A DNA stretch of 64,000 nt from Paenibacillus sanguinis 2301083 = DSM 16941 (GTDB lineage Bacteria > Bacillota > Bacilli > Paenibacillales > Paenibacillaceae): the NCBI RefSeq assembly GCF_000374825.1, contig NZ_KB895377.1:434001-498000 (forward strand), written 5' to 3'. This document shows positions 5,198-24,515 of the stretch, in pieces; position 1 is the first letter of the stretch, and the number at the start of each line of letters is the position of its first letter. Under the pieces are notes generated by a model. The model did not search any database. It was not told where the DNA came from and saw only the letters and a program-made list of their open reading frames with translations. A program made the position numbers and the translations under genes.

Positions 5198-6298
5198 ATG
5201 ATAGAACTTAGAAAGTTGAATGCGGATTCACTAGGCATTAAGCTGCCTTACCACCCAGAGCATGTTGTGTTCATTCGGAAAATTCAGGGTAGACGGTGGG
5301 ATCCGAATCGGAAGCTGTGGATTATTCCGTATAAGGAGTCAGCCATTTTGCAATTGCTGGAAATGTTTCCGAGAAATCTGATTTGGCTGGAACCTGGGCT
5401 GGTAAAGGAGTGTGAATGGTTTAATGCATTTGAAAAAAACTTAAGGAATCAAAAGAGGGGTTATCGTAATGCTCTGATTGAAGAGTTGAAAAAGCGTGGC
5501 TATAGCAGTAAGACGGTCAAAGCCTATTGCAGTCAGATAAAGCGATTTATCGACTCACTCCCGCCTGATGCGTCCGAGATCAGCAGTGATGCTGTTCAAA
5601 AATATTGTTTGGCTCTATTAGCCAAGCACATCTCTCATTCCAGTGTAAATCAGACGATTAGTGCAATTCGCTTCTATGCTAAATACGTATTAAACAAGCC
5701 AATGGATGAAATTCAGTATATTCGCCCTAAGAAGCAGCATATCCTGCCCAATGTTTTATCAGAAAATGAGGTCATCCGGCTACTAACGTGCCTAACGAAT
5801 CTCAAGCATCAAGCTGTTTTATACCTGACTTATTCTTCGGGGCTAAGAGTCAGCGAGGTGGTTCGGCTACGTCTCGCGGATTTGGATACGGAACGACAGA
5901 CCTTGCGTGTCCGGCAAGGTAAGGGGATGAAGGATCGAATGACTCTCTTATCTCCAACGGCTATGAGCGTGGTGCAAGCTTATATGATTCAGTTTCAACC
6001 TGAAGAATGGTTATTTCCAGGTCAACGTTCCGAGCGCCATGTGACGGAGCGTACTGTCCAAAAGGTTTTTGAAAATGCAAGAAGACGGGCAGGAATAGTT
6101 AAAAAGGTAAGTGTTCACTCGTTGCGTCATTCATTTGCAACTCATTTGCTTGAGGGCGGAACCGACCTCCGCTATATTCAGGAACTGCTAGGTCATCAGA
6201 GTGCTCGTACCACTCAACGATATACACATGTCAGCACAAAAAACATACAGCGTATTCAGAGCCCGCTTGATCGGCTGGAACTGAAGGATAGAGACTAG
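5198..6298 (+). CDS. Tyrosine recombinase, presumed cassette integrase
   Basis: The 366-residue protein has the full catalytic set of tyrosine recombinases: R217 (SSGLRVSEVVRL), K242 (QGKGMKDR), H307 and R310 (HSLRHSFATHLLEGG), H333 (LLGHQS) and nucleophile Y342 (TTQRYTHVS). A SAM-like core-binding domain spans about residues 85-170. Residues 1-70 are an extra domain with GRRWDPNRKLWIIPY, reminiscent of the HARP motif. The C-terminal SPLD tail resembles IntI proteins, but the IntI-specific extra helix between the K and H-x-x-R boxes is absent. Cassettes start about 100 bases downstream in the same orientation. XerC/D-like or phage-type recombinase is the alternative. Confidence 0.85.
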   Translation: MIELRKLNADSLGIKLPYHPEHVVFIRKIQGRRWDPNRKLWIIPYKESAILQLLEMFPRNLIWLEPGLVKECEWFNAFEKNLRNQKRGYRNALIEELKKRGYSSKTVKAYCSQIKRFIDSLPPDASEISSDAVQKYCLALLAKHISHSSVNQTISAIRFYAKYVLNKPMDEIQYIRPKKQHILPNVLSENEVIRLLTCLTNLKHQAVLYLTYSSGLRVSEVVRLRLADLDTERQTLRVRQGKGMKDRMTLLSPTAMSVVQAYMIQFQPEEWLFPGQRSERHVTERTVQKVFENARRRAGIVKKVSVHSLRHSFATHLLEGGTDLRYIQELLGHQSARTTQRYTHVSTKNIQRIQSPLDRLELKDRD

Positions 6299-6413
6299 CA
6301 CTGGATAAAATATACTTCGTCAATTCCTCTAAATGGATTATACTTGAAGCAGATCGGATAATTACCGATATGTGGCATATATACGAAGTTCAGATAAAAG
6401 ACGTTATGTGAAA
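6299..6413 (+). other. Candidate attI-like primary recombination region
   Basis: The 100 bases after the recombinase end in GACGTTATGTGAAAGA (core GTT at 6403), the same core as at the cassette sites, but no palindromic partner adjoins it on the left. An inverted pair ACTTCGT (6314-6320)/ACGAAGT (6383-6389) flanks the interval. TATACT at 6339 with a weak TTCGTC 17 bases upstream could be a cassette promoter. Position and core suggest the integration point for new cassettes. Confidence 0.55.
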
Positions 6414-6472
6414 GATCAGCAAGGAAATGATAAAGCTAAGCTTGGGAAGTTCTCATTTGAAAGGAAACCTGG

Positions 6473-6931
6473 ATGGAAAAGATAATTAGGGTGAACGGAA
6501 TTGGACATTTTAAGTATAGCACTGAACTAAAATCATACATAAATATTGAGGGGAAAGTGCATTGGACACTGGAAGTTAAAGATGAAAGTACTGACATTGA
6601 CAAATTAATAAGGAAAGCTGAATTGTTGTTTATCGAATTTGAGAGATTCGAGAAGGCGGCAAAAATAAAAATAGCTGAAGAGATGATAGATTTTAAAAAT
6701 GATTTTTGGCCAGAATATGATGAGAATGATGTTGAGCTAGACTGGGATGCTGTAGATGCGGGAGACTTTGACATAACAATTGAAGATTTTGTTAAATTGA
6801 TTAGTTTGATAGAATTAGAGATTCGATCCAATGAAATTTATTGTGAATATTTGGATGGGGGAATGTTTGGGGGACACAGAATCCATGCTTACTTTAGCTA
6901 TGATTATGAGCTTATTAAATCAGAATTATAG
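6473..6931 (+). CDS. Cassette 1 hypothetical protein
   Basis: This 152-residue, acidic soluble protein has the conserved-looking tail GGMFGGHRIHAYFSYDYELI, as seen in DUF2262-type or immunity-like small proteins. I cannot assign a family with confidence. AAAGGA lies upstream of ATG 6473. It is the first cassette after the recombinase, between the junction at 6403 and site 1 at 6964. AT-rich codon use differs from the flanking core genes, in line with acquisition. Confidence 0.7.
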   Translation: MEKIIRVNGIGHFKYSTELKSYINIEGKVHWTLEVKDESTDIDKLIRKAELLFIEFERFEKAAKIKIAEEMIDFKNDFWPEYDENDVELDWDAVDAGDFDITIEDFVKLISLIELEIRSNEIYCEYLDGGMFGGHRIHAYFSYDYELIKSEL

Positions 6932-6963
6932 ACGTGACATGTAGTTCGAAGAGGGCTGGTCCA

Positions 6964-7126
6964 TCACATAACACCGCATTCACGCGTCGGGGCATTCGCC
7001 CCTTGGTCCGCGAGAAGTATTTTCAGGGAAGTAGAATCAGCGGACAACCCTGCACCGGCTAAGTCTGACGACCCGCGCTACGCGCTTAAGCCGGTGAGGG
7101 TTCGTGAATGCCTGAACGTTATGTGA
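6964..7126 (+). repeat. attC-like site 1 (complete, 163 bp)
   Basis: R'' TCACATAAC (6964-6972) pairs with R' GTTATGTGA (7118-7126), and L'' CATTCACG with L' CGTGAATG. The left spacer is 4 bases and the right spacer 7, an asymmetry like that of attC. The middle holds GGGGCATTCGCCCC, GTCCGC/GCGGAC and CACCGGCTAAG/CTTAAGCCGGTG hairpins. Confidence 0.85.
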
Positions 7127-7172
7127 AAGACTGGAAAAGATCAATAATATATAAAACAGAAGGAAAAAAGAG

Positions 7173-7442
7173 ATGAAACCAAAAACATTTACTTCGATAA
7201 AGACAATCATAGATCAGTGGGATTCGGCAGAACTCCTTGCTATACATTGTCCACAAGACGAGTATGATTCAGAAATTAAAAAGTTAACCCTATATATACA
7301 ATCGAATGAAAGTCTAAATGAAAAGGAGTTTGGAAAATACATATATAAGATCTTAACAGAATACTTAGGGAATCAATTTCAAGAGACGGAAGAAAGATGT
7401 TTAGAGATAAGTAAAAAAATATTAGAGAAAGTATGTAAATAA
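7173..7442 (+). CDS. Cassette 2 DUF1871-like protein
   Basis: This small 89-residue helical protein contains IDQWDSAELLAIHCPQDEYD near the N-terminus. The WD...LL...P.DEYD.EI pattern is typical of DUF1871 proteins of Bacilli, whose function is unknown. AAGGAAAAAAGAG serves as ribosome binding region. The gene fills the cassette between sites 1 and 2. The left junction GTTATGTGAA and the right R'' TTCACATAAC are exactly complementary, so this cassette looks intact. Confidence 0.75.
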   Translation: MKPKTFTSIKTIIDQWDSAELLAIHCPQDEYDSEIKKLTLYIQSNESLNEKEFGKYIYKILTEYLGNQFQETEERCLEISKKILEKVCK

Positions 7443-7473
7443 TATTGAGTGTGCACGCAGAGAAGACCAGTCC

Positions 7474-7625
7474 TTCACATAACACAGTATTCACGCTACG
7501 GGGCTATCGTCCCTTGGTTGTCGGATGTATAATCATGGAAGAAGCTCAGACAACAAACGCCCCAGCCTAAGATAAGAGCTATCTAAGGTTGGGGTGTTTC
7601 GCGAATACAAGAACGTTAAGTGAAA
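7474..7625 (+). repeat. attC-like site 2 (complete)
   Basis: R'' TTCACATAAC (7474-7483), L'' GTATTCACG, L' CGCGAATAC, R' GTTAAGTGA (from 7615). The middle contains the type-A hairpin: GCCCCAGCCTAAGATA pairs with TATCTAAGGTTGGGGT, with one A-A mismatch. R'' and R' of this one site mismatch, but each matches the partner box of its own cassette. Confidence 0.85.
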
Positions 7626-7758
7626 TTGCTGCAAGTAACATTACAATAAGTTACCTCAATAATATTGCATCTATATATGCTAAATATTATATAGTATAAT
7701 GGCCTGTGAGAGTTAATAAACTACATTGTACCCAATATTAGTAGTTAGGGAGAGTGTT

Positions 7759-8487
7759 ATGAATCTTAATCAATACATAATAACTGTAAATCTAGCAGAA
7801 AAAACAGAATTGGAGAAAGTACGTTTACTTGCCTTTTTTCTTAATTTTACTGAAAATGCTACTTCATTCTCCCTTGACAATATTATAAAAATACTAAAAG
7901 AAATAGGTCATCCTATCTCAAATGTATCACGAATCAAAAGTTACCTTTCTAAATCAAAAGATTTTAAAAAGATTGGAAAAGGAACTGAGTACATGATAAC
8001 ACCTACAATTAAGCAAAAACTACAAGATGAAATTGGACCTATATTTAATAACATCGAAGAAGTTATATCTTCGAGTGAAATACTTGACGAAGCCTTGTTT
8101 TTGGGGAAAAGAGGATTTATAGATAAACTCGTTAAACAAATTAATAGTAGCTATAAGAATAATTGTTATGATGCTTGCGCAGTACTTATGCGGAGGCTTT
8201 TTGAAATTTCTTTAATTCTTGCGTATGAAAGTAAAGGAATTCAAGATCAAATTAAGGATGGACACGGTGATTATGTAATGCTTGAAAGAATTGTAACAAA
8301 CGCTAATCAGAATAAAACTTTAAATATATCAAGGTCACGTAAAGAATACGATTCAATTAGAGATTTAGGGAATTTTGCTGCACATAAAATACACTTTAAT
8401 ACACGAAAAAGTGATATTGATGACATAAAACAAACTTATCGTGTCTGTCTTGAAGAATTATTTTATATTTCAGGATTAATACACTAG
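7759..8487 (+). CDS. Cassette 3 gene A, HEPN/DUF4145-like protein
   Basis: The 242-residue protein starts at ATG 7759, preceded by TAGGGAGAG; the TTG at 7726 has no ribosome binding site. The C-terminal half is all-helical with NCYDACAVLMRRLFEISLIL and IRDLGNFAAHK. This resembles DUF4145 and related HEPN folds, in which R..N...H residues can form an RNase site; here the R-to-H spacing is seven, so catalysis is uncertain. The N-terminal half looks winged-helix-like. It is followed after 12 bases by gene B. TATAAT at 7695 may be its own promoter. Confidence 0.65.
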   Translation: MNLNQYIITVNLAEKTELEKVRLLAFFLNFTENATSFSLDNIIKILKEIGHPISNVSRIKSYLSKSKDFKKIGKGTEYMITPTIKQKLQDEIGPIFNNIEEVISSSEILDEALFLGKRGFIDKLVKQINSSYKNNCYDACAVLMRRLFEISLILAYESKGIQDQIKDGHGDYVMLERIVTNANQNKTLNISRSRKEYDSIRDLGNFAAHKIHFNTRKSDIDDIKQTYRVCLEELFYISGLIH

Positions 8488-8499
8488 GAGGAGATAAGC

Positions 8500-9408
8500 T
8501 TGACAAATAAAATTCGTATTAAATTAGGACTTATTGAATTTGAAGCAGAGGGAGATAGTGAACTAATTGAAAGAGAAAGAGAGCAATTTTTTAGCTTATT
8601 GCCAACTGCTATAAGTGCTGTTTCTCCTATCGTTTCCCCTAGTCCTCAGATATTAGAAATGGTACAAGATATTACGGGAGCATCTGATACTCCTGCTTTG
8701 ACTAATACCTCGTCCAACAATAATATTATTTCCTACGATTCAATAGCTGCCTTTTTAAAAATTAAATCATTTAGCAAAGAAGTGGAAAGAGTTTTGGGTG
8801 TTGCCTATTTTTTAGATCAAATAGAAGGCATCAGTCCTTTCACAGTTAAAGATATCGAGGCTAAATATACTGATGCAAGAATTTCAAAACCCAAAAATAT
8901 AAGCGATGCTATCAACAAAAATATAACTAAAGGATATCTTGGTGAAACAAAAGAAAAGAAGGATGGCCTTAAATCATTCTATGTATTAACCTCTGGAATT
9001 GAATGGTGTCAAGATTATACTCCTTCAGAAACCACAACACCTGTAAAGAAATCACCAAAGAGCCGGAAGGTTGCTTCGGAATCTAGTTTACTAAATATAT
9101 CTTTGGACGAACTTAACTTGGAGAAGTATGGTGATGTTTCCTCTTTAGAAAAGTTTATCGATCAGCTATTGGTTGTAATGTTGATATACTCAAGAGAGAA
9201 GGGGATTGAATACTTCTCATATGAAGATATAGTAGCAGTCTTTAAAAATAAGTTTAGGCTTCCTGCAACTGAAAGACAGGTTCAGTATTCATTTGATAAA
9301 GGGGGCACTATGTTTGACAAAAAAATAGAAAAGAAAAGGGCGTTTCACAAACTATTGTCAAGCGGAATAAAAGAGGCTGAAAGAATAGTTGCTCAACATA
9401 ATATCTGA
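8500..9408 (+). CDS. Cassette 3 gene B, hypothetical protein
   Basis: This 302-residue protein starts at TTG 8500 behind a strong AGGAGGAG. The N-terminus (KIRIKLGLIEFEAEGDSELI) is beta-rich and is followed by a Ser/Pro/Asn-rich linker and then two helical segments that could be winged helices (about residues 85-165 and 215-295). I do not recognise a family. The tight pairing with the HEPN-like gene A inside one cassette suggests the two products act together, possibly as a defence or toxin-antitoxin-like pair; this is inference only. Confidence 0.65.
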   Translation: MTNKIRIKLGLIEFEAEGDSELIEREREQFFSLLPTAISAVSPIVSPSPQILEMVQDITGASDTPALTNTSSNNNIISYDSIAAFLKIKSFSKEVERVLGVAYFLDQIEGISPFTVKDIEAKYTDARISKPKNISDAINKNITKGYLGETKEKKDGLKSFYVLTSGIEWCQDYTPSETTTPVKKSPKSRKVASESSLLNISLDELNLEKYGDVSSLEKFIDQLLVVMLIYSREKGIEYFSYEDIVAVFKNKFRLPATERQVQYSFDKGGTMFDKKIEKKRAFHKLLSSGIKEAERIVAQHNI

Positions 9409-9487
9409 TAACTCTACTCCCACAAATTAAGTGTGATAATACTATAAAAAGTTATTTTATTCAGTGTATTCAAAGATGGCAGTAACA

Positions 9488-9637
9488 TCACTTAACAATG
9501 CATCTACGCAGCGGGGCTTTCGCCCCTTGGTTGTCAGAAGCTAAGTCATAGAAGAGTATTCAGACAACACACGACCCGGCCTAAGATAAGAGCTATCTAA
9601 GGTCGGGTCGCGTCGTAGATACGACAACGTTATGTGA
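9488..9637 (+). repeat. attC-like site 3 (complete)
   Basis: R'' TCACTTAAC (9488-9496), L'' GCATCTACG, L' CGTAGATAC, R' GTTATGTGA (9629-9637). The L boxes changed together relative to sites 1 and 2 (ATTCACG to ATCTACG and the complement). The type-A apical stem also changed on both sides: GACCCGGCCT with AGGTCGGGTC. Confidence 0.85.
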
Positions 9638-9788
9638 AACTTCAAAAACTAATAAATTGATACAAGTATATAAAAGAAAGGAGCCATTCCTGTAATGAAT
9701 TAATTTGAGGTTTGAATGAAAAAAGCGCCAACTGTATACTGGGAAACGTTCCGTCCAAAGAACAATTCCAGCACAGGAGGCACTCTAT

Positions 9789-11084
9789 ATGAAGTATAAG
9801 CAATCGAAGAAACAGAATCAACGGATTACACGAATTTCCGACAAGACCCTTGTCGTAGGCGCAGACATCGCCAAAGAAACCCATGTGGCCCGCGCCATAG
9901 ATTTTCGAGGGATTGAACTCGGAAAGGATTGTGTGTTCACCAATACTCGTACCGGATTCGAGCAACTGGTTCAGTGGATGAAGGAGCTTCAGCAGGAACA
10001 TACCAAGAGTGACGTCCTCTTCGGTATTGAGCCCACCGGACACTACTGGTTCAACCTGGCAGAGTATTTGGGACAACAGGGCATTCCTTTAGTCATTGTC
10101 AATCCACATCATGTGCACAAGAGCAAGGAACTGGAAGATAACTCACCGACGAAAAACGACTATAAAGATGCAAAAGTCATTGCCGATTTAGTACGAAATG
10201 GGAAGTACAGCGAGCCGAAACTACCGACGAGTATTTACGCAGATCTGCGAATTCTCATGAATCTTCGAGAGAAGATCATGGTCAATTTCGGACAGGTGCA
10301 AAGGCGGGTACAGAACTGGCTGGATCGCTTTTTCCCAGAGTATCGGCAGGTATTTAAGGATTGGGAAGGCAAAGCCTCGCTAATTACGCTGGGTGAGTTT
10401 CCGACGCCTGGTGAAATTGTAGAGCTAGGCTCAGAAGCCATCGTTCAGCGGTGGAAGAAAGATGTGAAACGAGCTGTAGGCATTAAACGAGCCCAGCATC
10501 TCATGGAAATGGCTAGTCGGTCTATGGGTCTAACTGAAGGGCTTCCTGCAGCAAAAATCGAGATTAAAACGCTTCTGGAGCAGTATGAAATGTTCGCCAG
10601 GCAGCTTGAAGAAATTCTGAGCGAGGTCGAACGGCTCCTAATGCAAATTCCGGGCACGAAAGAGATGCTTACGGTGCCTGGCGTGTCTGTAGTCACCTTG
10701 GGGGGATTCCTTTCAGAAGTAGGGAATCTAAACGGTTATGAGCATGGACAGCAGATTATTCGGCTGGCCGGACTGAACCTCAAAGAGAATAGTTCTGGGA
10801 AGAAAAAAGGCAAGTCCAGCATTACTAAACGTGGACGCGCACGTTTAAGGGCTCTGCTATTCCGGGCGGTCATGCCCATGGTAGCAAAAAACGCGGAATT
10901 CAAGGCATTGCACCAGTACTTCACGAGGCGAAGTCAGAATCCACTGAAGAAAAAGCAATCCCTCGTGGCCTTGTGCGGGAAACTCATACGTGTCCTGCAT
11001 ACGCTAGGCACCAAGCAAATTCCTTACGATGCAAACGACGTATTAGGGCCGGTACGTCGGACCCAGTTACAGATGGTAGCCTAA
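9789..11084 (+). CDS. IS110-family DEDD transposase
   Basis: The 431-residue transposase has the N-terminal RuvC-like DEDD domain (VVGADIAKETHVARAI, GIEPTGHYW, KNDYKDAKVIADL). The C-terminal transposase-20 domain includes IPGTKEMLTVPGVSVVTLGG and the Ser region KKGKSSITKRGRARLRALL. IS110 enzymes excise and insert circular elements guided by a bridge RNA. The gene is full length and undisrupted, so the element may be active. GGAGG (9777-9781) lies 7 bases before the ATG. Confidence 0.93.
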   Translation: MKYKQSKKQNQRITRISDKTLVVGADIAKETHVARAIDFRGIELGKDCVFTNTRTGFEQLVQWMKELQQEHTKSDVLFGIEPTGHYWFNLAEYLGQQGIPLVIVNPHHVHKSKELEDNSPTKNDYKDAKVIADLVRNGKYSEPKLPTSIYADLRILMNLREKIMVNFGQVQRRVQNWLDRFFPEYRQVFKDWEGKASLITLGEFPTPGEIVELGSEAIVQRWKKDVKRAVGIKRAQHLMEMASRSMGLTEGLPAAKIEIKTLLEQYEMFARQLEEILSEVERLLMQIPGTKEMLTVPGVSVVTLGGFLSEVGNLNGYEHGQQIIRLAGLNLKENSSGKKKGKSSITKRGRARLRALLFRAVMPMVAKNAEFKALHQYFTRRSQNPLKKKQSLVALCGKLIRVLHTLGTKQIPYDANDVLGPVRRTQLQMVA

Positions 11085-11345
11085 GAACAACCGGATTCAC
11101 GTTTCTCACCGGAAGGAAAGAACCAAGACAAAGGAAGCACGGAGCAGCCGTAGGAATCTATTCCATAAGGGCAACGACCCTGTAAAGGAGCAAAAAGCGG
11201 CGTCCACCTCTTGAGAGGCCGAACGAAGGAATGTAAGGGCAGCGACCCCGCGTGACATGGGAGGGTAAGCCGTCAAGAGTCAGGTGTGGATATCCAAGTG
11301 CGATCACAGGAACGATCTATGTGTTGGAGACAACTTCCTCCAATC
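11085..11345 (+). ncRNA. Candidate bridge RNA region of the IS110 element
   Basis: The 3' noncoding part of the element holds two similar blocks, AAGGGCAACGACCC (11167-11180) and AAGGGCAGCGACCC (11235-11248), each able to form a short hairpin. Other pairings lie around them. IS1111-type elements carry the bridge RNA on this side; two related loops would fit the target- and donor-binding loops. Boundaries are guesses. Confidence 0.45.
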
Positions 11346-11484
11346 TCTATTCCCGCCACCGGCTCTGCCAGAAAATAATGTCACTCTTGCATGACTTCTC
11401 CATCTCTCGAAATGTCTATGGTTGAAAATCTAAGAACGAGTGAGTAAACAAGAGAAAATATTAATTTATAGTGGGAGGAAAAAA

Positions 11485-12326
11485 ATGAAAGAAAAAGCTG
11501 TATGGGCAGAACCTGAAAACTTCATGATGGTATTCCGCTGTACAACCCAGAAATATGCTGAAAATTTCCTCAATAATGGACAAATCAAATTTAGTACGCC
11601 AAGTTCATGGGTGAAGTACGCTTTTGAAAAAGGAGAAGGACGGGGAGATAAGTTAGAGGGTACAATGGCGACTTTTCATGTACTTGATGTTGAACGAGGA
11701 ATTGAATTGAATCAAAAATACGAAAATATACTGACTTATTAAGAGTTCCGGTTGGACCACGTGTTTACTTAAAGAGTTCTCGTGATATGGAATTGCCATG
11801 CTTTTGCTTTTATATTTTAAAGCAAAGTATGTTTGATTCTCCTGAAGAAGAAGGAAAACATAGATTAACAACAATGATACCAGACTCCTATTTCAAAGAC
11901 TTTATGGACAACCTTGATCCTGAAGAAGTAGAAAAATTGGATGAAAAGGACAAACCTTCAGTTATTTTTATACATGACTATAAAGAGTTTGAAAAAAGAA
12001 TTATTTCTTCTTTAATGCGATTGGGCCTACAACGAGAAGAAATAATCGTATCACGCATATCTTATTTTGATTTTGATAAATATGGTGAATACGGGTGGTG
12101 GGATTTTGGGCAAAGAATGCCTAATGAATTGACTATAAAACATACAAGATTCCAGAATCAAAGTGAAGCTAGAATAATTATAAATACAGATAATGAAAAT
12201 GTGAAAAAGATTTTAGAAAGGCCTATTGAGATTGGTTCATTGAAAGATATCGCGACAGTAAGTAATACCTATCTTCATGGAGGAATGTCTGTAGAGATAA
12301 CAGTGGACGTAGAAGCATTAGAATAA
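11485..12326 (+). pseudogene. Frameshifted cassette gene of unknown family
   Basis: Reading from ATG 11485 (GGGAGG upstream) gives FRCTTQKYAENFLNNGQIKF and stays open to a stop at 11740. The other frame is open across the break and continues the protein (VPVGPRVYLKSSRDMELPCF) to 12326. A one-base change in the A-rich stretch at about 11715-11735 joins the halves into a 280-residue protein. The C-terminal half includes NELTIKHTRFQNQSEARIII. The family is unknown to me; related N-termini occur in mobile-element proteins. The gene was separated from site 3 by the IS110 insertion. Confidence 0.65.
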
Positions 12327-12435
12327 GTAATCGTAGTATATTTAGATAATGAATCTAACATATTATCATTTAAAAGCATTATGAAGTTTACTATATTATT
12401 AAAATCATGATGCTAATTCATAGAAGAAATGAACA

Positions 12436-12535
12436 TCCGATAACATAATATTCACGCTGCGGACATCCGTCCTTGGCCCGGCATTCGCCGGGCACCTGGC
12501 ATGTGCCAGGTCGTGAATACAGGAACGTTATACGA
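12436..12535 (+). repeat. attC-like site 4 (complete, short)
   Basis: R'' TCCGATAAC (12436-12444), L'' ATATTCACG, L' CGTGAATAC, R' GTTATACGA (12527-12535). The middle is short, with CCCGGCATTCGCCGGG and ACCTGGCATGTGCCAGGT hairpins. The R boxes of this site do not match well, as expected if they belong to different cassettes. Confidence 0.8.
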
Positions 12536-13304: not shown

Positions 13305-14091
13305 CAGCTTTTTTAAGGGCCTCTTGGCATACTGAACAGGTGTCATGTATCCCAGTGTTCCGTGAATACGATGCTTATTAAACCAGTTGACGTAATCATA
13401 TAGCTCGATCTCCAAATGACGAAGGCTCTGATATTCCCTGGTTCACGAACTCGGTTTTCATCACCTTGAAGGTGGCTTCCGCTACGGCGTTGTCATAAGC
13501 ACAGCCTTTCATGCTAAGAGAACGACCGATTTCAAAGGTTTCCAGAAGCTCATCCATCTTTTCATTGTTAAACTCGCTGCCTCGGTCAGTATGAAACCAC
13601 TGAATGTGACGCAAATCCCCCTGTACCGTAGCAAAGGCGCGGGAAATCAGAGCAGCGTCCTTATGTGGACCTGCACTATGACCGATGAGCTCTCGATTGA
13701 ACAGGTCGATGAGCACACAAATGTAATGCCACTTGTTTTGGACTTTGACATACGTAAGATCGCTGACGACAAAACGTTTGACTTCGGTCTCCTCAAATTC
13801 ACGATCCAGCACATTTGTTGTTGTCGCTTCATTACAAGCCGTTTTGTGGGGCTTATACTGGGCTACAGTATATGTGGAAATCAGACCTTGCTCTTTCATA
13901 ATCCGGCCAATGCGGCGTCTGGACACGACGAGTCCGCGTTCGTGTAGCTTGGCTTTGATCTTTCGGGTGCCGTAGGCTTTGCGGTTCTTATGGAAGATTT
14001 CCACAATGGCTGCGCTCAGCTCATCTTCATTCTTTTCTTCCTTCGTCTCATAGTAGAACGTGCTTTTTGCGATTTGCAGGACGCCGCACAT
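13305..14091 (-). pseudogene. IS3 transposase OrfB, frameshifted near its C-terminus
   Basis: The DDE integrase core is present: FVVSDLTYVKVQNKWHYICV, the HTDRGSEFNN segment and AYDNAVAEATFKVMKTEF with the final Glu. After FVNQ the frame breaks at about 13430-13445. A different frame restores the family C-terminus (LRHLEIELYDYVNWFNKHRI, then GTLGYMTPVQYAKRPL). The last ~50 residues are therefore lost from the product and the transposase is probably inactive. Normal expression would be by -1 frameshifting from orfA at GGACGAAAG. Confidence 0.85.
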
Positions 14092-14132
14092 TGCTGATAC
14101 CGAGTATTTATCACGGTTATTCTGGATGATAG

Positions 14133-14417
14133 CTACTTTCGTCCCATGATCAGCGCGGCTTGCTTTAGGATGTCAACCTCCATTTGGAGACGTTGGTTTT
14201 CTTTTCGTAAAGCGAGGAGTTCATTTTCTTCGGGAGAGCGGTTGTCCTTTTCCTTGAAGGAGCCTGTTTTCTTGGATTGCTTGATCCAGCGGTCTAAAGC
14301 AGAAGCCGTGAGGTCATATTCCTCCACAATCGCTGCTCTGGGTTTTCCGTTCTCATAGAGCTGCACCATTTGCTTTTTGAACTCGCTTGTAAACGTTCTT
14401 CGTTGTTGTTTGGACAT
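14133..14417 (-). CDS. IS3 transposase OrfA
   Basis: The 94-residue protein has an N-terminal helix-turn-helix (RTFTSEFKKQMVQLYENGKP; YDLTASALDRWIKQ) and a C-terminal leucine-zipper-like coiled coil (ELLALRKENQRLQMEVDILK). This is the standard OrfA of IS3-family elements. It binds the terminal repeats and is fused to OrfB by frameshifting. Confidence 0.9.
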   Translation of the reverse strand: MSKQQRRTFTSEFKKQMVQLYENGKPRAAIVEEYDLTASALDRWIKQSKKTGSFKEKDNRSPEENELLALRKENQRLQMEVDILKQAALIMGRK

Positions 14418-15630: not shown

Positions 15631-16605
15631 GATGGCGTAAAATAAGCTGTGTACCAAGATTTGGAGCCTAGTCAGGCAACAAAAAAGTAGGGTATTCTCG
15701 GGATTACGACACCACCAAGAAGGGACCCTACTTGATGACTATTGTACCCGAAAATCTAATGAATAATCTATTTGAAAATCTTGTCACCCAATTTGTCAAA
15801 GATAACCTGGAATCTATTTTGAAGGCAGAAATCCAGCAATTCATGACCAGTGAAGAGGCTGGGAATCACAACAGCCGTAATGGCTACTACACCCGTAATT
15901 TGCACACGAAATATGGAAATATAGAAGATCTAGCCGTTCCTAGAGACCGTCAAGGAGCTTTTCAAACACAGTTATTTGAGCCCTACCAACGACGCGACGG
16001 ATGGCTGGAAGAGGCGGTCATTCAGATGTACAAATCAGGCATGGGTACCCGAGATGTCGCCCGATTCATAGAAAGTATGTTCGGCAGCCATTACTCCCCT
16101 ACCACCGTCAGTAACAATACCGCAACGGTGCTGGGAGACATTCACCAGTGGCAAAAGCGTCCGCTGCAAAAACGCTATTCTGTCATCTACCTGGATGGCC
16201 TGTACGTCAAACTCAAGCGTGGGACTGTTGGAGCTGTACCCGAAAGAAATGCAGTCCTGGGAGGAACAGCTATCCACGTTACTGACGTTCTATATGTACC
16301 CGGCGCTGATCAAGGAGGTGATCTACACCTCCAATCCGATTGAGCGAATGAATAAGGAAATCCGAAAGCGCCTAAAACCCATGAACAGCCTCACCAATAT
16401 GGACGCAGCAGAGAAAATTGTCTACCTCGACGTGATAGACTACAATGAACGTTTTGCTGAACGAGTCATTCGCGGTTTCGGTGATGTAGAGGTAAAGAAG
16501 AAACTGAATGAGAGGGGTTCCCCCGCCCCAAAGAACATCCACACCCCATAACGAATACCCGAGAAGTTACTCTCTACTCTTTTACACAAACTTCTTGACG
16601 CTACC
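15631..16605 (+). mobile_element. Internally deleted IS256-family element
   Basis: The ends are GATGGCGTAAAATAAG (left) and the complement of CTTGACGCTACC (right), which share a GxTxGCGT...TGTGTA pattern. At 975 bp it is about 350 bp shorter than intact relatives, because the middle of the transposase gene is missing. No target duplication is visible. Confidence 0.75.
15732..16551 (+). pseudogene. IS256-family transposase remnant
   Basis: The N-terminal half reads correctly (IQQFMTSEEAGNHNSRNGYY, VPRDRQGAF, YSVIYLDGLYVKLKRGTV) up to about 16225. It then jumps to the C-terminal end in another frame (ELYPKEMQSWEEQLSTLLTF, IYTSNPIERMNKEIRKR). About 110 residues between them, including the second catalytic Asp region, are deleted and the frame is shifted. 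It cannot make active MULE-type transposase. Confidence 0.85.
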
Positions 16606-16925: not shown

Positions 16926-16991
16926 TCCACATAACAATATATTCACGCTGCGGACCATATGTCGGGTCGTGAATAGGGGAACGTTATATGC
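16926..16991 (+). repeat. attC-like site 5 (complete, 66 bp, minimal)
   Basis: R'' TCCACATAAC (16926-16935), L'' ATATTCACG, L' CGTGAATAG, R' GTTATATGC (16983-16991). Only about 20 bases separate the L boxes, so this is the smallest intact site and shows what the core architecture needs. The right R' matches the R'' of site 6, not its own. Confidence 0.85.
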
Positions 16992-17026
16992 AATTGGGGC
17001 AAATTTGATACAGAAAGGTTGATTAG

Positions 17027-17698
17027 ATGATGAGTAATTACACAGACCCGAACTTTAAAAAATGCGCGATCATTACTATCGATACTCAGAACGATTTTTG
17101 TTTACCAGGAGCTGTTGCAGAAATTGCAGGCACAGTTAATGTACTGCCACACATGAAGCGAGTATTGGATGTATGTAGGAGTAGAAATATTCCTATTATG
17201 CATGTAATTCGATTATATAAGAAAGATGGCTCGAATGTTGACATTTGCCGTCGAGAATTAATTGAGAAAGGTGTGCCAATTGTAACACCAGGATCTATGG
17301 GAGCAGATTTAGTTGAAATGATTAGCCCACAAAATTCAGTTCAGATAGACGACGAAGGGCTGCTCCAAGGAAGAATTCAATTAATCGCAAATAATGAATG
17401 GGTAATGTATAAGCCAAGATGGGGGGCATTTTATCAAACCGATTTAGAAGTATTTTTAAAAGAGAAGAATATAGATACGCTAATCTTTCTCGGGTGCAAT
17501 TTTCCGAATTGTCCAAGAACGAGTATATATCAAGCAAGTGAAAGGGACTTTAAGGTGGTCATGGTCGAGGATGCTATATCAGGTGTTTATGATAAGGGTA
17601 TTCATGAAATGATTAATATAGGAGTTAAAGTAACAAAAACAGAGGAACTTATTAGACAATTTGCAAGCGCATACGAAGAAGGCCCCAACAGCATATAA
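17027..17698 (+). CDS. Isochorismatase-family cysteine hydrolase
   Basis: The 223-residue protein has the isochorismatase fold: the catalytic Asp in IITIDTQNDFCLPG, the Lys in MYKPRWGAF and a Cys-containing nucleophile loop GCNFPNCPRTSIYQASERD. It resembles ureidoacrylate/nicotinamidase-like cassette-borne hydrolases; the substrate is unknown. The stop codon TAA at 17696 is supplied by the R'' box of site 6. The flanking junctions (GTTATATGC at 16983 and GCATATAAC at 17691) are complementary, so this is an intact cassette. Confidence 0.88.
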   Translation: MMSNYTDPNFKKCAIITIDTQNDFCLPGAVAEIAGTVNVLPHMKRVLDVCRSRNIPIMHVIRLYKKDGSNVDICRRELIEKGVPIVTPGSMGADLVEMISPQNSVQIDDEGLLQGRIQLIANNEWVMYKPRWGAFYQTDLEVFLKEKNIDTLIFLGCNFPNCPRTSIYQASERDFKVVMVEDAISGVYDKGIHEMINIGVKVTKTEELIRQFASAYEEGPNSI

Positions 17699-17793
17699 CA
17701 ACGTTATTCACGCATCGGGCCATTCGGCCCTCGATCCGGCAGAAGTTTGAAGTGATTCGGTGGGGCGTCGTGAATACAAGAACGTTATAGGAA
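17691..17793 (+). repeat. attC-like site 6 (complete)
   Basis: R'' GCATATAAC (17691-17699), L'' TTATTCACG, L' CGTGAATAC, R' GTTATAGGA (17784-17792). The middle has GGGCCATTCGGCCC. It overlaps the end of the isochorismatase-like gene. Confidence 0.85.
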
Positions 17794-18358: not shown

Positions 18359-18508
18359 TCACCTAACACAGTATTTACGCTGCAAGGCTATCGCCCTTTG
18401 GTTACCAGATGTATAATCATAGAAGAAGCTCAGACAACAAACGCCCCAGCCTAAGATAAGAGCTATCTAAGGCTGGGGCGTTTCGTGAATATGGGAACGT
18501 AATACGCA
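18359..18508 (+). repeat. attC-like site 7 (complete, altered core)
   Basis: R'' TCACCTAAC (18359-18367), L'' GTATTTACG, L' CGTGAATAT, R' position GTAATACGC (18499-18507), where the usual GTT has become GTA. It has a perfect copy of the type-A hairpin, GCCCCAGCCTAAGATA with TATCTAAGGCTGGGGC. Confidence 0.8.
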
Positions 18509-18551: not shown

Positions 18552-18947
18552 TTGAATCGAGATGAAGCTGTTGAAAAGATTAACCTCTACTTTGAAGCAT
18601 GGGTTGAGAAGAACTTCAAAAAATTTGAAAAATTGGTTCATGAAAATGCAATTGTCAGAGAATGCAATGGTGGAGTAATAGAGGGGAGAGACGAATTGCA
18701 TCGGTGGTTTAAAGAATGGAATCAAGGTAGTAACAGGGTCATCTATTGGAAAATCAACTTTATTGGGTATGACAATGAACTGATTTCTGCATTTGTGGAG
18801 TGGGAATTCAAGTGTATTTATGCGGGGATAGAATATGAATGGTGTGGCTCTAGCATAGTGAATTTCAAAGATTCATTAATTATAGAAATAAATGAATACG
18901 AAATGAAATATGAGAAATTCTATCCTTATAGATGTATGGAAAGTTGA
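18552..18947 (+). CDS. SnoaL-like (NTF2 superfamily) protein
   Basis: The 131-residue protein starts at TTG 18552 behind AAGGAGGAG. It has the cone-shaped NTF2/SnoaL pattern: an N-terminal helix (RDEAVEKINLYFEAWVEKNF), GGVIEGRDELHRWFKEWNQG and a strand series ending in SSIVNFKDSLIIEINEYEMK. Such proteins are small ligand-binding or isomerase-like folds; the ligand is unknown. Its cassette is bounded by site 7 and by the half site at 18954, which carry the same GTAATACGCAAT core. Confidence 0.75.
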   Translation: MNRDEAVEKINLYFEAWVEKNFKKFEKLVHENAIVRECNGGVIEGRDELHRWFKEWNQGSNRVIYWKINFIGYDNELISAFVEWEFKCIYAGIEYEWCGSSIVNFKDSLIIEINEYEMKYEKFYPYRCMES

Positions 18948-18953: not shown

Positions 18954-18978
18954 ATATATGGGAACGTAATACGCAATA
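18954..18978 (+). repeat. attC-like site 8 (right half only)
   Basis: ATATGGGAACGTAATACGCA matches the right end of site 7 exactly; the left half and middle are missing. Confidence 0.65.
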
Positions 18979-19892: not shown

Positions 19893-19988
19893 CCGCAGAC
19901 CACCCTGCACTGGCTAAGTCCGTCGGACCCGGGGCTAACGCTCGTTAAGCCAGTGAGGGTTCGTAAATACACGAACATTATACGAAAC
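19893..19988 (+). repeat. attC-like site 9 (left end lost, type B)
   Basis: CACTGGCTAAG...TTAAGCCAGTGAGGG is the same hairpin as in site 1 but with a paired change (CCGG to CTGG and CCAG). L' CGTAAATAC and a degenerate core ATTATACGA (19977) follow. No R''/L'' is seen. Confidence 0.7.
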
Positions 19989-20027
19989 TACTGAAGATAT
20001 TATTTTAAATCCATAGAAGGAGATACT

Positions 20028-20340: not shown

Positions 20341-20478
20341 CACTTATTTTTTGGAGCCGTAAACTTATATGCATTTACTTCAACAGACCCTTCTGCTTTA
20401 TCAAAAAATTCAGAGGCCGTAGGTGAATTTAATGATAAATTGACTTCGTATGACGTCGTGAATACAGGAACGTTATAG
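20341..20478 (+). pseudogene. 3' fragment of an unknown cassette gene
   Basis: A frame without a start reads FNHLFFGAVNLYAFTSTDPS and runs into the half site at 20450, stopping at 20476. It may be the tail of a lost cassette gene. No family is recognised. Confidence 0.3.
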
Positions 20479-20482
20479 GAAA
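20450..20482 (+). repeat. attC-like site 10 (right half only)
   Basis: CGTCGTGAATACAGGAAC followed by GTTATAGGAAA (core at 20472) matches the right arm of site 6. Confidence 0.7.
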
Positions 20483-22010: not shown

Positions 22011-22040
22011 CAGTTACAAATACAAGAACATTATCGAAAA
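22011..22040 (+). repeat. attC-like site 12 (right end only, degenerate)
   Basis: AAATACAAGAAC followed by ATTATCGAAAA, where the core GTT has become ATT. No left arm remains. Confidence 0.5.
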
Positions 22041-22070
22041 TTTGAGTAATTGCAAATAAGGAGAACAAAG

Positions 22071-22889
22071 ATGAATAACATTAAAGAGACCCTTCAACAA
22101 ATAAGAGATAATAATTACATAATTCCAAATGAAATTAGCATTGAGGAATTAATCATAGAAATGATGAACCATATTGGGGCAATAGATAGCGAACTGAGGG
22201 ATAACCTTATTTATAATACATTTAATCATTGGATTGTTAATAAGAAAATGAGTGCTGGGTTAGTCAAACGAATACTTTATACGGCTCTAGACGATGAACA
22301 TTTGTTTTATGGTTTGGACGAAGGTCATAACGATAAAGTCTTCACACGAACTTTTTCCATTCTACTGGTGCCCTTAGCATTAGAATATAATGAGTCCGTT
22401 CTTTTTTTATCAAAGCAAGATTTTGAGTACATATACTCCAGGGTTTATGGCTATTTTACCCTTGAGCAGGATCTAAGAGGATACATAGAAGGTAAGGGAT
22501 GGGCGCATGCAGTTGCACATACGGCCGATGCATTAGAATCCCTAGTTGCCTCTTCTTATTGTTCCGTGGATCATTGTATTGAGGTTTTGGACTTGATTAA
22601 AAAGAAGTTCTGTAATTATTCATATGCTTTTATTAACAGTGAGGATGACAGAATTGCAGAAGTAATAGTTCGGATTATAAGACGTGATATTCTAAGGAAG
22701 GGATTTATGTCCGACTGGATTGAACAACTCAGTGTTGTTGAATATATCGGCAGCTATCCTGAAGATGAAATATTACGAACTAACGCAAAAAATTTATTAA
22801 GAAGCATCTACTTTAAACTAATCATCCATGATGCAAATTTATATAAGGATGTTACAACTACAATTATCAGGGTGATGAAACACCTGTAA
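22071..22889 (+). CDS. DUF2785 family protein
   Basis: The 272-residue helical protein contains RGYIEGKGWAHAVAHTADAL, the diagnostic DUF2785 segment. Helix-rich flanks (HLFYGLDEGHNDKVFTRTFS) match the family. The function is unknown; family members are common in Bacilli and often lie in variable regions. ATG 22071 is preceded by AAGGAGAAC; the GTG/ATG-like codon further upstream lies in the degenerate site 12. Confidence 0.88.
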   Translation: MNNIKETLQQIRDNNYIIPNEISIEELIIEMMNHIGAIDSELRDNLIYNTFNHWIVNKKMSAGLVKRILYTALDDEHLFYGLDEGHNDKVFTRTFSILLVPLALEYNESVLFLSKQDFEYIYSRVYGYFTLEQDLRGYIEGKGWAHAVAHTADALESLVASSYCSVDHCIEVLDLIKKKFCNYSYAFINSEDDRIAEVIVRIIRRDILRKGFMSDWIEQLSVVEYIGSYPEDEILRTNAKNLLRSIYFKLIIHDANLYKDVTTTIIRVMKHL

Positions 22890-22918
22890 GATAGATATAG
22901 TCTCCCCAGGAATCTTTT

Positions 22919-23032
22919 TATGACTTGCTAGTTAAAAGCAATGTATTGACAAGAACGCAAGCGGAGCAAGATTATTCTCAAAAACTAAAATATCTGAGAG
23001 AAAATGATACGTTTTTTAAGATAACAAATTAA
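22919..23032 (+). pseudogene. C-terminal fragment of an unknown gene
   Basis: A frame without a start reads YDLLVKSNVLTRTQAEQDYS and ends LRENDTFFKITN at 23030. It lies just after the DUF2785 gene and before a terminator and site 13, so it looks like the tail of a lost cassette gene. I cannot name the family. Confidence 0.4.
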
Positions 23033-23060
23033 GAGAATTTATTTCGTGAAGACCGAATGT

Positions 23061-23089
23061 CTGTTGCTTTAAAAGCAGCAGGCTTTTTT
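23061..23089 (+). terminator. Rho-independent terminator inside the array
   Basis: CTGTTGCTTT and AAAGCAGCAG form a stem (one G-T pair) followed by GC and TTTTTT. Confidence 0.85.
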
Positions 23090-23131
23090 ATTTTCGTAGC
23101 GGCATGTCCAAGTATTTGTGAAACGATGGCC

Positions 23132-23284
23132 TAGTATAACACGGTATTCGCACATCAAGGCTATCGCCCCTTGGTTGATCAGATGTATAATCATGGAAGA
23201 ACACATAGACAACAAACGCCTCAGCCTAAGATAAGGGCGATCTATGGCTGGGACGTTTCGTGAGTACAAAGACGTTATCGGAAA
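23132..23284 (+). repeat. attC-like site 13 (complete)
   Basis: R'' TAGTATAAC (23132-23140), L'' GTATTCGCAC, the type-A hairpin (CGCCTCAGCCTAAGATA / CGATCTATGGCTGGGACG), L' CGTGAGTAC and R' GTTATCGGA (23274-23282). Confidence 0.8.
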
Positions 23285-23314
23285 TCAACCTAACATATTA
23301 CGTGGAGGGACTCA

Positions 23315-23791
23315 GTGAAGAAAAAAGGAAAAGTAGCATTAAGCTGCATTATCATTGTTGCGACTATATATCTAATCTATGATTTTTATCGCCCCAAGCA
23401 CATTGAAGTAAACCTTAATAGCACCATTTACTCGATAGATTCTAAGTTAGAAAGGCAAACGGCTATTTCAATAATTGGAGAACATCACAAAAAACTCTTT
23501 GGCAATGACATCTTGATAGGTAAGATGATCGTAGATAAGGATTTAACATATGAAATAAAACTTAAGAGAGAAGACAATAGGTATTTTGAGATACTGACCA
23601 AGAAAAATAATGAGTTTCATGTAATAAATACGATTGGCTCAATTATAACATCAACTGATTTTGACCGAGTATGGCTTCAATTGGACGATATAAATGAGAA
23701 ATATAACCTTGTTGAGGGGTATGTGTCAGGGCCTGCCAAAAATATAGAAGAAGCAAATGATATTGCAAGAAGTATCATTGAAGGATATTAG
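23315..23791 (+). CDS. Membrane-anchored hypothetical protein
   Basis: The 158-residue protein starts at GTG 23315 behind GTGGAGGGA. It has a single N-terminal transmembrane segment (VALSCIIIVATIYLIYDFY) followed by an extracytoplasmic domain ending AKNIEEANDIARSIIEGY. No catalytic motif or family is recognised. It fills the cassette after site 13, and the right half site 14 begins at its stop codon. Confidence 0.7.
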   Translation: MKKKGKVALSCIIIVATIYLIYDFYRPKHIEVNLNSTIYSIDSKLERQTAISIIGEHHKKLFGNDILIGKMIVDKDLTYEIKLKREDNRYFEILTKKNNEFHVINTIGSIITSTDFDRVWLQLDDINEKYNLVEGYVSGPAKNIEEANDIARSIIEGY

Positions 23792-23816
23792 TACCGTGAA
23801 TAGAACGTTATGAAAT
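23790..23816 (+). repeat. attC-like site 14 (right end only)
   Basis: TACCGTGAATAGAAC followed by core GTTATGAAA (23807). The left arm and middle are absent. Confidence 0.55.
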
Positions 23817-23856
23817 CACAGTAAACTGTCCATAAAAGCGACACGAGGAGGTCTGT

Positions 23857-24417
23857 ATGAAAACAATTATTTATATGGTTAGGCATGCTGAATCACCATA
23901 TGATGAAGGAAATGACAGAACAAGAGGTCTTACCGCAAAGGGGAAGGTAGATGCAGAAAGGATATCGAAGTTACTTATTGGTGAAGGAATAGACATAATA
24001 ATTTCAAGTCCATATTCAAGAGCGATATTAAGTATTGAGGGATTGGCTCAGCAACTAAACTTGGAGATAAAAACAATTGAAGATCTGAGAGAACGCCATT
24101 TTTCTCCAGATAATAATATTGATTTAATGGATAATATTAGAAATAACTTCTACAACCCTGAATATACCTTGCCAGGTGGGGAATCTAACATAGATTGCCA
24201 GAAAAGGTCCATTGCAGTATTGAAAACTATACTTAAAGAACACAAAGGGAAGAAAGTAGCTATTGGAACACACGGCCTTGTAATGACTTTGATGATGAAC
24301 TATTTTGATTCAGATTATGGTTTGGATTTCCTAAATCAATTAAAGAAACCGGATATCTATAAAATGCAATTTGAGGACTTAAAACTAGTAGAAGTAACAA
24401 GAATGTGGGATGAATAG
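23857..24417 (+). CDS. Histidine phosphatase family protein
   Basis: The 186-residue protein has the phosphoglycerate-mutase-like catalytic motif YMVRHAESPYDEG near the N-terminus. SSPYSRAILSIEGLA, the second-half catalytic His in IGTHGLVMTLMM and the acid in ERHF complete the set. Substrates in this family range from sugar phosphates to nucleotides; none can be chosen. ACGAGGAGG lies upstream of ATG 23857. It is the last cassette of the main array. Confidence 0.88.
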   Translation: MKTIIYMVRHAESPYDEGNDRTRGLTAKGKVDAERISKLLIGEGIDIIISSPYSRAILSIEGLAQQLNLEIKTIEDLRERHFSPDNNIDLMDNIRNNFYNPEYTLPGGESNIDCQKRSIAVLKTILKEHKGKKVAIGTHGLVMTLMMNYFDSDYGLDFLNQLKKPDIYKMQFEDLKLVEVTRMWDE

Positions 24418-24450
24418 TTTTGTGCAGGTTTATTGAAAAAAGACTGTGAC

Positions 24451-24515
24451 ATCCAATAACACTGTATTCATTGCATAGGGCCATTTGGCCCTCGGTTAAC
24501 AATTATGTTTTTATT
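24451..24515 (+). repeat. attC-like site 15 (left half only), end of the main array
   Basis: R'' ATCCAATAAC (24451-24460), L'' GTATTCATTGC and GGGCCATTTGGCCC are followed by unrelated sequence; no L'/R' half is present. Confidence 0.65.

Follow-up and report, generated by a model that had tools for sequence, protein, structure and literature searches.

Is an array of gene cassettes that lies beside a tyrosine recombinase gene in a Gram-positive chromosome an integron, and if so, by which enzyme is it run? The question is raised by a locus of Paenibacillus sanguinis 2301083 (DSM 16941) within a stretch of 64,000 nucleotides (contig NZ_KB895377.1, positions 434,001 to 498,000), hereafter the window. 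Integrons are held to need the integrase IntI with its additional domain (cited sections of PMC9668308), and the cited part of PMC9024848 describes them as extremely rare in Firmicutes, with a few clusters of attC sites lacking integron-integrases (CALIN) and one complete integron, that of Limnochorda pilosa. Judging from its sequence, the locus is very probably an integron run by a tyrosine recombinase of a non-IntI lineage. The initial annotation had called it integron-like, which can be put more strongly because the locus combines attI, attC-like sites, mostly single-gene co-oriented cassettes, exchange with core breakpoints, and a non-IntI recombinase. The genome comprises 4.80 Mb in 36 contigs, and the genus also holds P. 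senegalimassiliensis (G025, array locus L018), the two species being 93.9% identical in ffh. The elements of the array are as follows.

5198 to 6298, plus strand: tyrosine recombinase of 366 amino acids, non-IntI lineage (NCBIfam, alignments)
6317 to 6344, plus strand: predicted candidate cassette promoter (Pc), TCGTCA-16-TATACT, between recombinase and attI
6381 to 6413, plus strand: attI-like site, crossover within C6402 to A6406 (CGTTA)
6403 to 7117, plus strand: cassette 1, with a DUF2262 gene at 6473-6931 (Pfam); boundaries from core positions
6964 to 7126, plus strand: attC-like site 1 (site scans)
7118 to 7614, plus strand: cassette 2, with a gene for 89 amino acids at 7173-7442
7475 to 7623, plus strand: attC-like site 2 (site scans)
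7615 to 9628, plus strand: cassette 3, with genes at 7756-8487 and 8500-9408 (open reading frames)
9488 to 9637, plus strand: attC-like site 3, two mismatches in each arm
9629 to 12526, plus strand: cassette 4, containing an IS110-family element with its transposase at 9789-11084
12436 to 12535, plus strand: attC-like site 4 (site scans)
16927 to 16991, plus strand: attC-like site 5, the shortest, core of 55 bases
16983 to 17783, plus strand: cassette 6, with an isochorismatase-like gene at 17027-17698; its start matches R'' of site 6
17691 to 17792, plus strand: attC-like site 6 (site scans)
18359 to 18507, plus strand: attC-like site 7, altered cores ATTTACG and ACGTAA
23132 to 23282, plus strand: attC-like site 8, degenerate (site scans)

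One line of evidence comes from the way in which the cassettes join. A crossover in the core would leave the R' half that follows each junction as part of the next cassette, and this half must then fit the R'' of that cassette's own site. This rule was examined in the window and L018-L035, which together make 19 sequences with 138 sites; no site was found in L019, L023, L024, L026, and L029 and one in L021, and the 13 arrays with at least two sites gave 117 consecutive pairs, each within 2.5 kb. The four variable bases of R'' exactly match the start of their own cassette in 81 of the 117 pairs, compared with 11 of 117 for R'' against the right side of the same site and with a mean of 6.8 and a maximum of 16 in 1000 shuffles. 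In two Cohnella arrays the rule is obeyed in 13/13 pairs each, with one mismatch in nine tolerated, and therefore no site is skipped there. These matches place the crossover inside CGTTA, and no finer because this five-base core is invariant; cassette boundaries were set at the core with a cut C^G by convention. Canonical integrons cut G^TT, as given in the cited part of PMC8876359.

The presumed insertion point at the near end of the array obeys the same rule. The core of the attI-like site (6402-6406) is 104 bases past the recombinase stop, and its GTTATGTGA exactly complements R'' of attC-like site 1. As in an integron, attI adjoins the recombinase gene and the first cassette starts there. 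Among 13 loci with a recombinase and an array, the expected start of the first cassette finds its best match, with 0-1 of nine bases wrong, 72-485 bases past the end of the recombinase match in 11. The other two, L020 and L034, fail with two mismatches each; a readable core, GACGTTAGCTGAAA, lies at +109 in L020, the first site of which was perhaps missed by the detector. Two forms of attI recur, ...AGATAAAAGAC^GTTA, which is the kind of the window, and ...GCAGAGATAAGGGA^GTTA.

Comparison between species, rather than strains, shows where arrays diverge and what is exchanged. P. senegalimassiliensis shares the recombinase and attI, likewise located at trmD, and the window is 92-96% identical to it through recombinase and attI to base 6413; the homology ends there, 11 bases after C6402, and resumes in the flank at 36966. 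Past 6413 the sole long match is 7102-7618 (98.8%), located elsewhere in the partner array. Order and content, the fixity of which would by the initial annotation have refuted its reading, are thus not fixed, since the sister species shares one cassette and at another position. The genomes of another pair of sister species, G038 and G020, are 96.4% identical up to 4 bases past the core C, which is the end of the core, and differ beyond it until 25.6 kb, barring shared pieces. Several of 244 delimited cassettes from 33 loci are common to different species, and seven pairs were compared in full. Cassette 2 of the window and its counterpart in P. senegalimassiliensis are 99.4% identical over 497/497 bases at different array positions. 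The shared cassettes of G020 and G019 (99.0% over 676/682 bases; ffh 82.0%), G020 and G038 (99.8% over a 470-base part; ffh 91.4%), G002 and G676 (94.4%; ffh 80.2%), G038 and G675 (93.6%; ffh 77.7%), and G020 and G005 (93.0%; ffh 81.2%) are likewise closer than ffh, whereas that of G019 and G018 (91.9% vs 90.8% in ffh) is no better than the chromosome and provides no evidence of transfer. These comparisons indicate that cassettes move between species, with the cassette as the unit of exchange and the crossover in a GTT core, as in integrons.

In P. senegalimassiliensis the recombinase frame is interrupted and the array retains ten detectable sites; this integron may be inactive. Four near-identical short cassettes with a common body of 201 bases, three of them adjacent, are seen in L022 (3788-4759 and 11669-11955, oriented), which would reflect repeated insertion or duplication of one small cassette.

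The attC-like sites themselves were scanned for as paired arms, TAAC-spacer-ATTCACG on the left and CGTGAAT-spacer-ACGTTA on the right. Eight were found in the window between 6964 and 23282, all on the plus strand and 3' of the recombinase gene (5198-6298), and none on the minus strand; they form an array of attC-ended cassettes in one orientation, which is a defining feature of integrons. The seven complete sites and the altered one at 18359 of the initial annotation were independently recovered with R'' starts at most one base off its coordinates, its unequal spacers proved real (the left shorter than the right), and its half sites can be read in the sequence. A looser detector gave eight matches on the plus strand and three mirror matches on the minus strand, against 0-3 per run on both strands in 20 runs on order-1 Markov versions of the whole window. 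With a stricter oriented detector, six sites on the plus strand and none on the minus strand were found at 4.9-24.6 kb and none in the remaining 44.3 kb; control DNA of 170 kb, made up among others of this 44.3 kb and of short regions beside other tyrosine recombinases, gave one match, which falls in L019, a stretch from the far part of the island in the sister species. The right-arm pattern GAACGTTANRNGMAA has five exact matches in the whole 4.8-Mb genome, every one at the array locus. It is specific at zero mismatches only, because one mismatch gives 30 places vs 27 for the reversed control. The R' core reads GTTA followed by three variable bases and mostly then G, so that GTTRRRY is followed loosely, position 5 often being T or C. 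Sites were counted by patterns and scripted detectors rather than by a covariance model, and most detectors demand TAAC and GTTA and miss variant cores.

Compensatory changes speak for folding of the attC-like sites as a single strand. In 35 of the 38 sites of the 148-162-base class (three dropped by hand), 142 cells were altered on both sides of 30 named pairs, vs 58 when shuffled and 6-19 when slid; the pairs were named by hand from the sequences and lean on the consensus, which partly builds in the slid control. The variable middle holds 111 of the 142 cells in its stems, and one pair, for example, is A-U in 16, U-A in 11, and C-G in 8 sites. RNAalifold on a MAFFT alignment of the 35 sites gave 11 pairs, and a second alignment (22 of 28 sites) was not used further. 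The three variable R'' columns pair with the right side of their own site in only 20-21 of the 35 sites. Folding z-scores on the two strands were -3.7/-3.6 for site 2 and weak, -0.9/-0.6, for site 5. In a search of the sites against Rfam, nothing scored above the gathering score and one sub-threshold microRNA match appeared.

The recombinase consists of an N-terminal HARP-like extension (about residues 1-85), a SAM-like core-binding domain, and a catalytic domain; R217, K242, R310, H333, and Y342 are invariant among 17 relatives. The HARP match is weak (14.4 bits in the window recombinase and 24.9 in P0115, with a cut-off of 25), and an extension of some 80 residues is present in 15 of the 17 relatives, compared with about 10 residues in the IntI structure 2a3v. 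The NCBIfam scores of the recombinase are below both cut-offs, 218.6 bits for XerA_Arch (cut-off 220) and 206.8 for the integron integrase model TIGR02249 (cut-off 265). The latter matches only at model positions 5-174 and 232-315, skipping 175-231, which bears out the earlier statement that the enzyme is not a standard IntI, since the skipped part holds the additional domain. Among solved structures, the nearest in sequence are the archaeal Xer 4a8e (best) and the integron integrase 2a3v, and the match to 2a3v is interrupted for 68 residues where the window recombinase has 26. The GKG-to-LRHSF distance was measured in L051-L130 and the window, 81 loci of which five gave no frame and four no motif; it is 64-71 in 72/72 measurable members, the window included, compared with 109 in IntI3 and 68 in an IS91-associated recombinase. 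The alignments thus indicate a recombinase without the IntI additional domain. A structure model from 17 sequences has a predicted local distance difference test (pLDDT) value of 82.6, and its nearest folds are XerA 5hxy and then IntI 2a3v.

Two trees place this recombinase family, IntI, and IS91-associated recombinases in one group against Xer, with a support of 95/99 in the first tree and 97 in the second. IntI is a separate clade with a long stem (support 100/100 and length 1.59 in the first, 98 and 1.22 in the second), and the recombinase family lies outside it; the sample is narrow, 15 IntIs with names mostly from Gammaproteobacteria and Burkholderiales. Of the three marks of an IntI integrase, namely the additional domain, a TIGR02249 score over the cut-off, and a place in the IntI clade, the recombinase has none. 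The deep forks are unsettled in the first tree, and in the second the family makes up one side with a support of only 80, so the trees are compatible with IntI being either sister to or nested in the family. The first tree contains a row with a wrongly chosen frame (Y_Smel) and a long branch (Y_own_L133); the second is a quick core tree without Y_Smel, Y_own_L133, Y_own_L039, Y_own_L040, HX_L108, HX_L128, and HX_L103, with five rows added and with one Leptospira row among the Xer rows.

The difference in the enzyme has a counterpart in the site. The α-I2 helix is the additional domain of IntI. This helix contacts the second extrahelical base of the folded canonical attC (PMC3053210, cited part), which is the one-base bulge in L''. 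Sites were located by the match of R'' to the cassette start only, after which the L stem was scored as ungapped or with one bulge. Of 146 sites of the non-IntI recombinase family, 138 have an ungapped L stem, so that the canonical bulge is not a feature of these sites, vs a bulged L'' in 23 of 26 sites at IntI loci. The former comprise 110/113 in Paenibacillaceae and 14/15 in other phyla (array strand only) and 14/18 in new Bacillota loci (both strands, looser core); the latter comprise 18/21 in G589, a Bacillota genome with IntI, and 5/5 with the looser core on three contigs of two genomes (3/3 with the first core). A Shewanella plasmid integron tried as a control for the bulge yielded no sites. 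Unequal spacers are common to both types. The enzyme that lacks the domain is thus paired with sites that lack the base read by it; this may be cause and effect, and the IntI sample is small.

The same layout is found beside relatives of the recombinase in many other genomes. A scan of named genomes was limited to the best 80 of at least 557 relatives, of which L051-L072 are 22 loci from Paenibacillus, Saccharibacillus, and Cohnella and L073-L130 the other 58. Site counts are given below in the order downstream same strand, downstream opposite, upstream same, and upstream opposite, and the shuffles are order-2 Markov sequences. The oriented detector gave 104, 0, 1, and 2 in the 22 loci, and 67, 3, 6, and 0 in the 58 loci, for which shuffles gave 1.5 downstream and 1.8 upstream per strand. 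Without the Paenibacillus loci L081, L087, and L088, at least one same-strand downstream site is present in 26 of 55 loci (51 sites). Their titles include Peptococcaceae, Clostridium, Alkaliphilus, Fusibacter, Halanaerobacter, Nitrospirae, Nitrospinae, Thermotogae, Atribacteria, Bacteroidia, Flavobacterium, Spirochaetota, Dehalococcoidia, and Deltaproteobacteria, as well as the archaeal Altarchaeum (4 sites), Micrarchaeota, and Methanoperedenaceae (one each). In a fresh set of 13 Bacillota loci picked by the recombinase alone, the counts were 25, 0, 2, and 1 (shuffles 0.7 downstream), with at least one downstream site in 9/13 loci, one of which, L183, looks like chance. By these counts, the system is not confined to Gram-positives. 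Since the same layout stands beside relatives in other phyla and some archaea, genes would be captured in the manner of integrons far more widely than has been recognised, and there is a fair chance that the system is a separate, widespread lineage.

At the level of genomes, the recombinase family (E 1e-80 or better) was found in 29 of 398 Bacillota genomes and IntI over its cut-off in 2, in searches that scored only the first 4-5 candidates per genome. In 25 of 29 genomes with both recombinase and sites, several of which are incomplete metagenome-assembled genomes (MAGs), there is no IntI over the cut-off. A count of the left-arm pattern over 245 genomes of the window's taxonomic family gave 1454 occurrences vs 15 for the reversed control. 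Recombinase-positive genomes (E 1e-70) carry left arms in 71/71 cases (median 10), so the sites are not mainly far from such recombinases, contrary to the second refuting condition of the initial annotation; some of the 71 also hold arrays elsewhere. Left arms are present in 96/174 recombinase-negative genomes (median 1), and 78/174 have none.

Some of these genomes and loci show further features. Large orphan arrays with 29-40 left arms are present in G243, G272, G070, and others, which hold no family recombinase at E 1e-50. In L117 (Fusibacter sp. 3D3), several near-identical sites stand in a row, and the same genome (G066) has further related recombinases of about 300 amino acids; this array may be a particularly active one. 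On the opposite strand in L075 (15411) and L117 (17147), a second relative of the recombinase faces the array from its far end.

Several observations weigh against an integron of this kind. There are 36/117 pairs without an exact match between R'' and cassette start, and in the window the match holds for 3/4 close pairs, the distal part being fragmented. The predicted folding energy favours neither strand consistently (4 sites, both strands), and the structure model has a predicted template modelling score (pTM) of 0.52. In the bulge comparison, 4/18 sites in the new Bacillota loci are not ungapped, this both-strand set holding noise, and 3/21 calls in G589 are bulged on the other side, on a strand without a coherent array, noise being included here as well. 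No downstream site was found in 29/55 non-Paenibacillus loci, many of which end soon after the gene; L079, L086, L109, L112, L121, and L127 have 8-10 kb without a downstream site. Many of the 26 loci with such a site are MAG contigs with a single one, and three of the four sites in L073 are oppositely oriented. At least 5 left arms are held by 40/174 recombinase-negative genomes; when 30 of the 40 were tested, 14 kept a partial, shortened, or broken recombinase and 16 had none at E 1e-50. In addition, the -35 boxes of the candidate promoters are poor.

Known systems offer other explanations. The locus shares with IntI integrons a tyrosine recombinase, attI in cis, and attC-type sites with R and L boxes (PMC9668308, PMC8876359, cited sections), as well as the GTT-core crossover, unequal spacers, mostly single-gene co-oriented cassettes, and their exchange. 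It could accordingly be an ordinary IntI integron, the integrase of which merely diverged or recently lost the additional domain, the family being IntI; this would suit the grouping of the recombinase, its relatives, and IntI against Xer (95/99; 97) and the features common to both, namely the core site, unequal spacers, an attI next to the integrase gene, and the logic of the cassettes. However, the domain is absent in 72/72 measurable members from many phyla, IntI keeps to its own clade with a long stem and the family outside, the sites are without the L-box bulge, and the N-terminal extension is present in 15/17 members compared with about 10 residues in 2a3v, all of which make this explanation improbable. 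Unlike IntI integrons, the system has no additional domain, a HARP-like N-terminal extension, an L box without the one-base bulge, and a branched inner site structure, and unlike class 1 its recombinase reads with the cassettes. A search demanding the IntI domain would at most class such arrays as CALIN, the integrase-less attC clusters of PMC9024848 (cited part), from which the locus differs in having a recombinase and attI, the array being complete with another recombinase.

Xer recombinases are near-universal in bacteria and act at a single dif site, and the genome of the window has a separate XerD. The cassettes might be moved by host XerC/XerD or by a true IntI elsewhere, the neighbouring recombinase being merely present, and a true IntI in 4/29 genomes and arrays without an intact copy of the recombinase are in line with this. 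We nevertheless regard it as very unlikely, because 25/29 genomes, several of them incomplete MAGs, hold no IntI over the cut-off, near-universal Xer does not fit 78/174 negatives without a left arm against 71/71 positives with arms, and attI lies in cis beside the window recombinase gene. The recombinase shares the core-binding and catalytic fold of XerA, XerC, and XerD (PDB 4a8e, 5hxy, 1a0p); unlike them, it falls outside the Xer clade in both trees, and thus outside the recombinases of Xer dimer resolution, and adjoins arrays of foldable sites. The least credible explanation takes the repeats for RNA elements, terminators, or repeats like miniature inverted-repeat transposable elements that spread with genes, with the recombinase as a bystander. 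The sites do fold on both strands and sit 3' of genes, but R'' complements the cassette start some 0.2-2.5 kb off rather than the right side of its own site, the breakpoints seen between species lie at the core, the sites are one-sided and co-oriented with the recombinase, and Rfam gave nothing above the gathering score. Prophage integration, pdif/Xer modules, and repeats borne by insertion sequences were set aside on the match between R'' and cassette start. Tyrosine recombinases beside IS91-family transposases (e.g., Bradyrhizobium pCC829_2 and Pseudoalteromonas pPBSW1) are up to about 40% identical to the core, and Bradyrhizobium and Caballeronia rows group with one distant row of the recombinase family in the trees. 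The Bradyrhizobium and Pseudoalteromonas genes adjoin an IS91 transposase, unlike the window recombinase, and the stricter detector found no site in the short Pseudoalteromonas flank. No report of such a system was found among the papers listed from the open PMC literature by title or start of abstract, preprints and most subscription papers lying beyond this scope.

An integron with a non-IntI recombinase thus accounts best for the locus, and its recombinase likely moves the cassettes, a catalytic role that we infer from the comparisons above. The recombinase would cut and rejoin DNA within the invariant CGTTA core, with cassettes inserted at attI just 3' of its gene and excised between attC-like sites. 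It would act on a folded single strand, as IntI does. The choice of strand would be set by two asymmetries, that of the central spacers and that of the inner junction, because there is neither an L-box bulge nor an additional domain to read it, and the HARP-like N-terminal extension may serve instead to recognise the fold. The first cassettes would be transcribed from a promoter between recombinase and attI, where a Pc-like element is predicted; recombinase and cassettes read in the same direction. The same element is present in P. senegalimassiliensis, a variant in G038 and G020, and a TATAAT equivalently placed in several other relatives; elements of TATAAT or TATACT type, as candidate promoters, lie between recombinase and attI in 10/13 loci. 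A LexA box of the Bacillus type near the recombinase start was absent from the window and present in two named loci only (L074 and L076) among those with at least 10.5 kb of sequence, and SOS control of the recombinase is unsupported.

Beyond this locus, we lean towards the existence of two kinds of integron, the IntI kind and an older or sister kind with HARP-extended, domain-less recombinases, in which enzyme and site changed in step: one kind would have both the L-box bulge and the domain that reads it, and the other neither. The second kind would range over Paenibacillaceae, Clostridia, Halanaerobiales, Nitrospirota, Bacteroidota, Spirochaetota, Atribacteria, Chloroflexota, and several archaeal groups, and some of the attC clusters reported as orphans from Gram-positives and archaea would be second-kind integrons or their remains. 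If this is true, an integron lineage has been overlooked because searches demand the IntI domain, two lineages become available for studying how integrons arose, and some orphan attC clusters gain an owner. Integrons would then not avoid Gram-positive hosts and would simply use a different enzyme there. The paired absence of domain and bulge offers a direct test of the mechanism of strand choice, and a new pool of accessory genes including defence candidates, together with a new structure-guided recombinase, would be gained.

In 206 cassettes of 200-1500 bp (median 741), the longest open reading frame is sense in 167 and antisense in 31, and 8 have none of 60 amino acids. The protein sample comprised 99 of the 166 listed sense frames of at least 70 amino acids and one more. 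Among these 100 proteins, NUDIX (5) and GNAT (4) were the most frequent Pfam families, with 25 of 46 families listed, and PADLOC gave PDC-M08B (3), AbiTii (2), PD-T4-6 (1), and the mads-type mad2 (2) and mad6 (1), with 25 of 48 families listed. Chromosomal integrons carry similar cargo.

In the window, the recombinase is flanked by trmD (ends at 4579) and rplS (open reading frame from 41674). The start of cassette 4 is unmatched by R'' of site 4, and the distal cassettes end in half sites only, right halves with cores near 18966, 19977, 20472, 21315, 22030, and 23807 and a left half near 24450. This distal array is decaying by insertion sequences and the loss of half sites. Further features there are the following.

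18552 to 18947, plus strand: SnoaL-like gene (Pfam), followed by the right-half site near 18966
19962 to 19990, plus strand: right-half site, altered core CATTA (sequence; GAACGTTANRNGMAA match with one mismatch)
20454 to 20482, plus strand: right-half site (sequence; exact GAACGTTANRNGMAA match)
24446 to 24475, plus strand: left-half site, end of the array (sequence)

The remainder of the trmD-rplS island (24612-41500) contains LysR, SDR, ABC transporter, and siderophore-uptake-like genes by eye; the stricter oriented detector found no sites in it, and the match with the sister species resumes only from 36966. An IS3-like transposase region on the minus strand and an IS256-like relic, seen by eye from the open reading frames, occupy 13396-14417 and 15732-16551; these transposase regions interrupt the array, the cassette boundaries of which are lost there. 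The IS110-family transposase gene (9789-11084) stands directly after attC-like site 3, and IS110 relatives that target attC sites exist.

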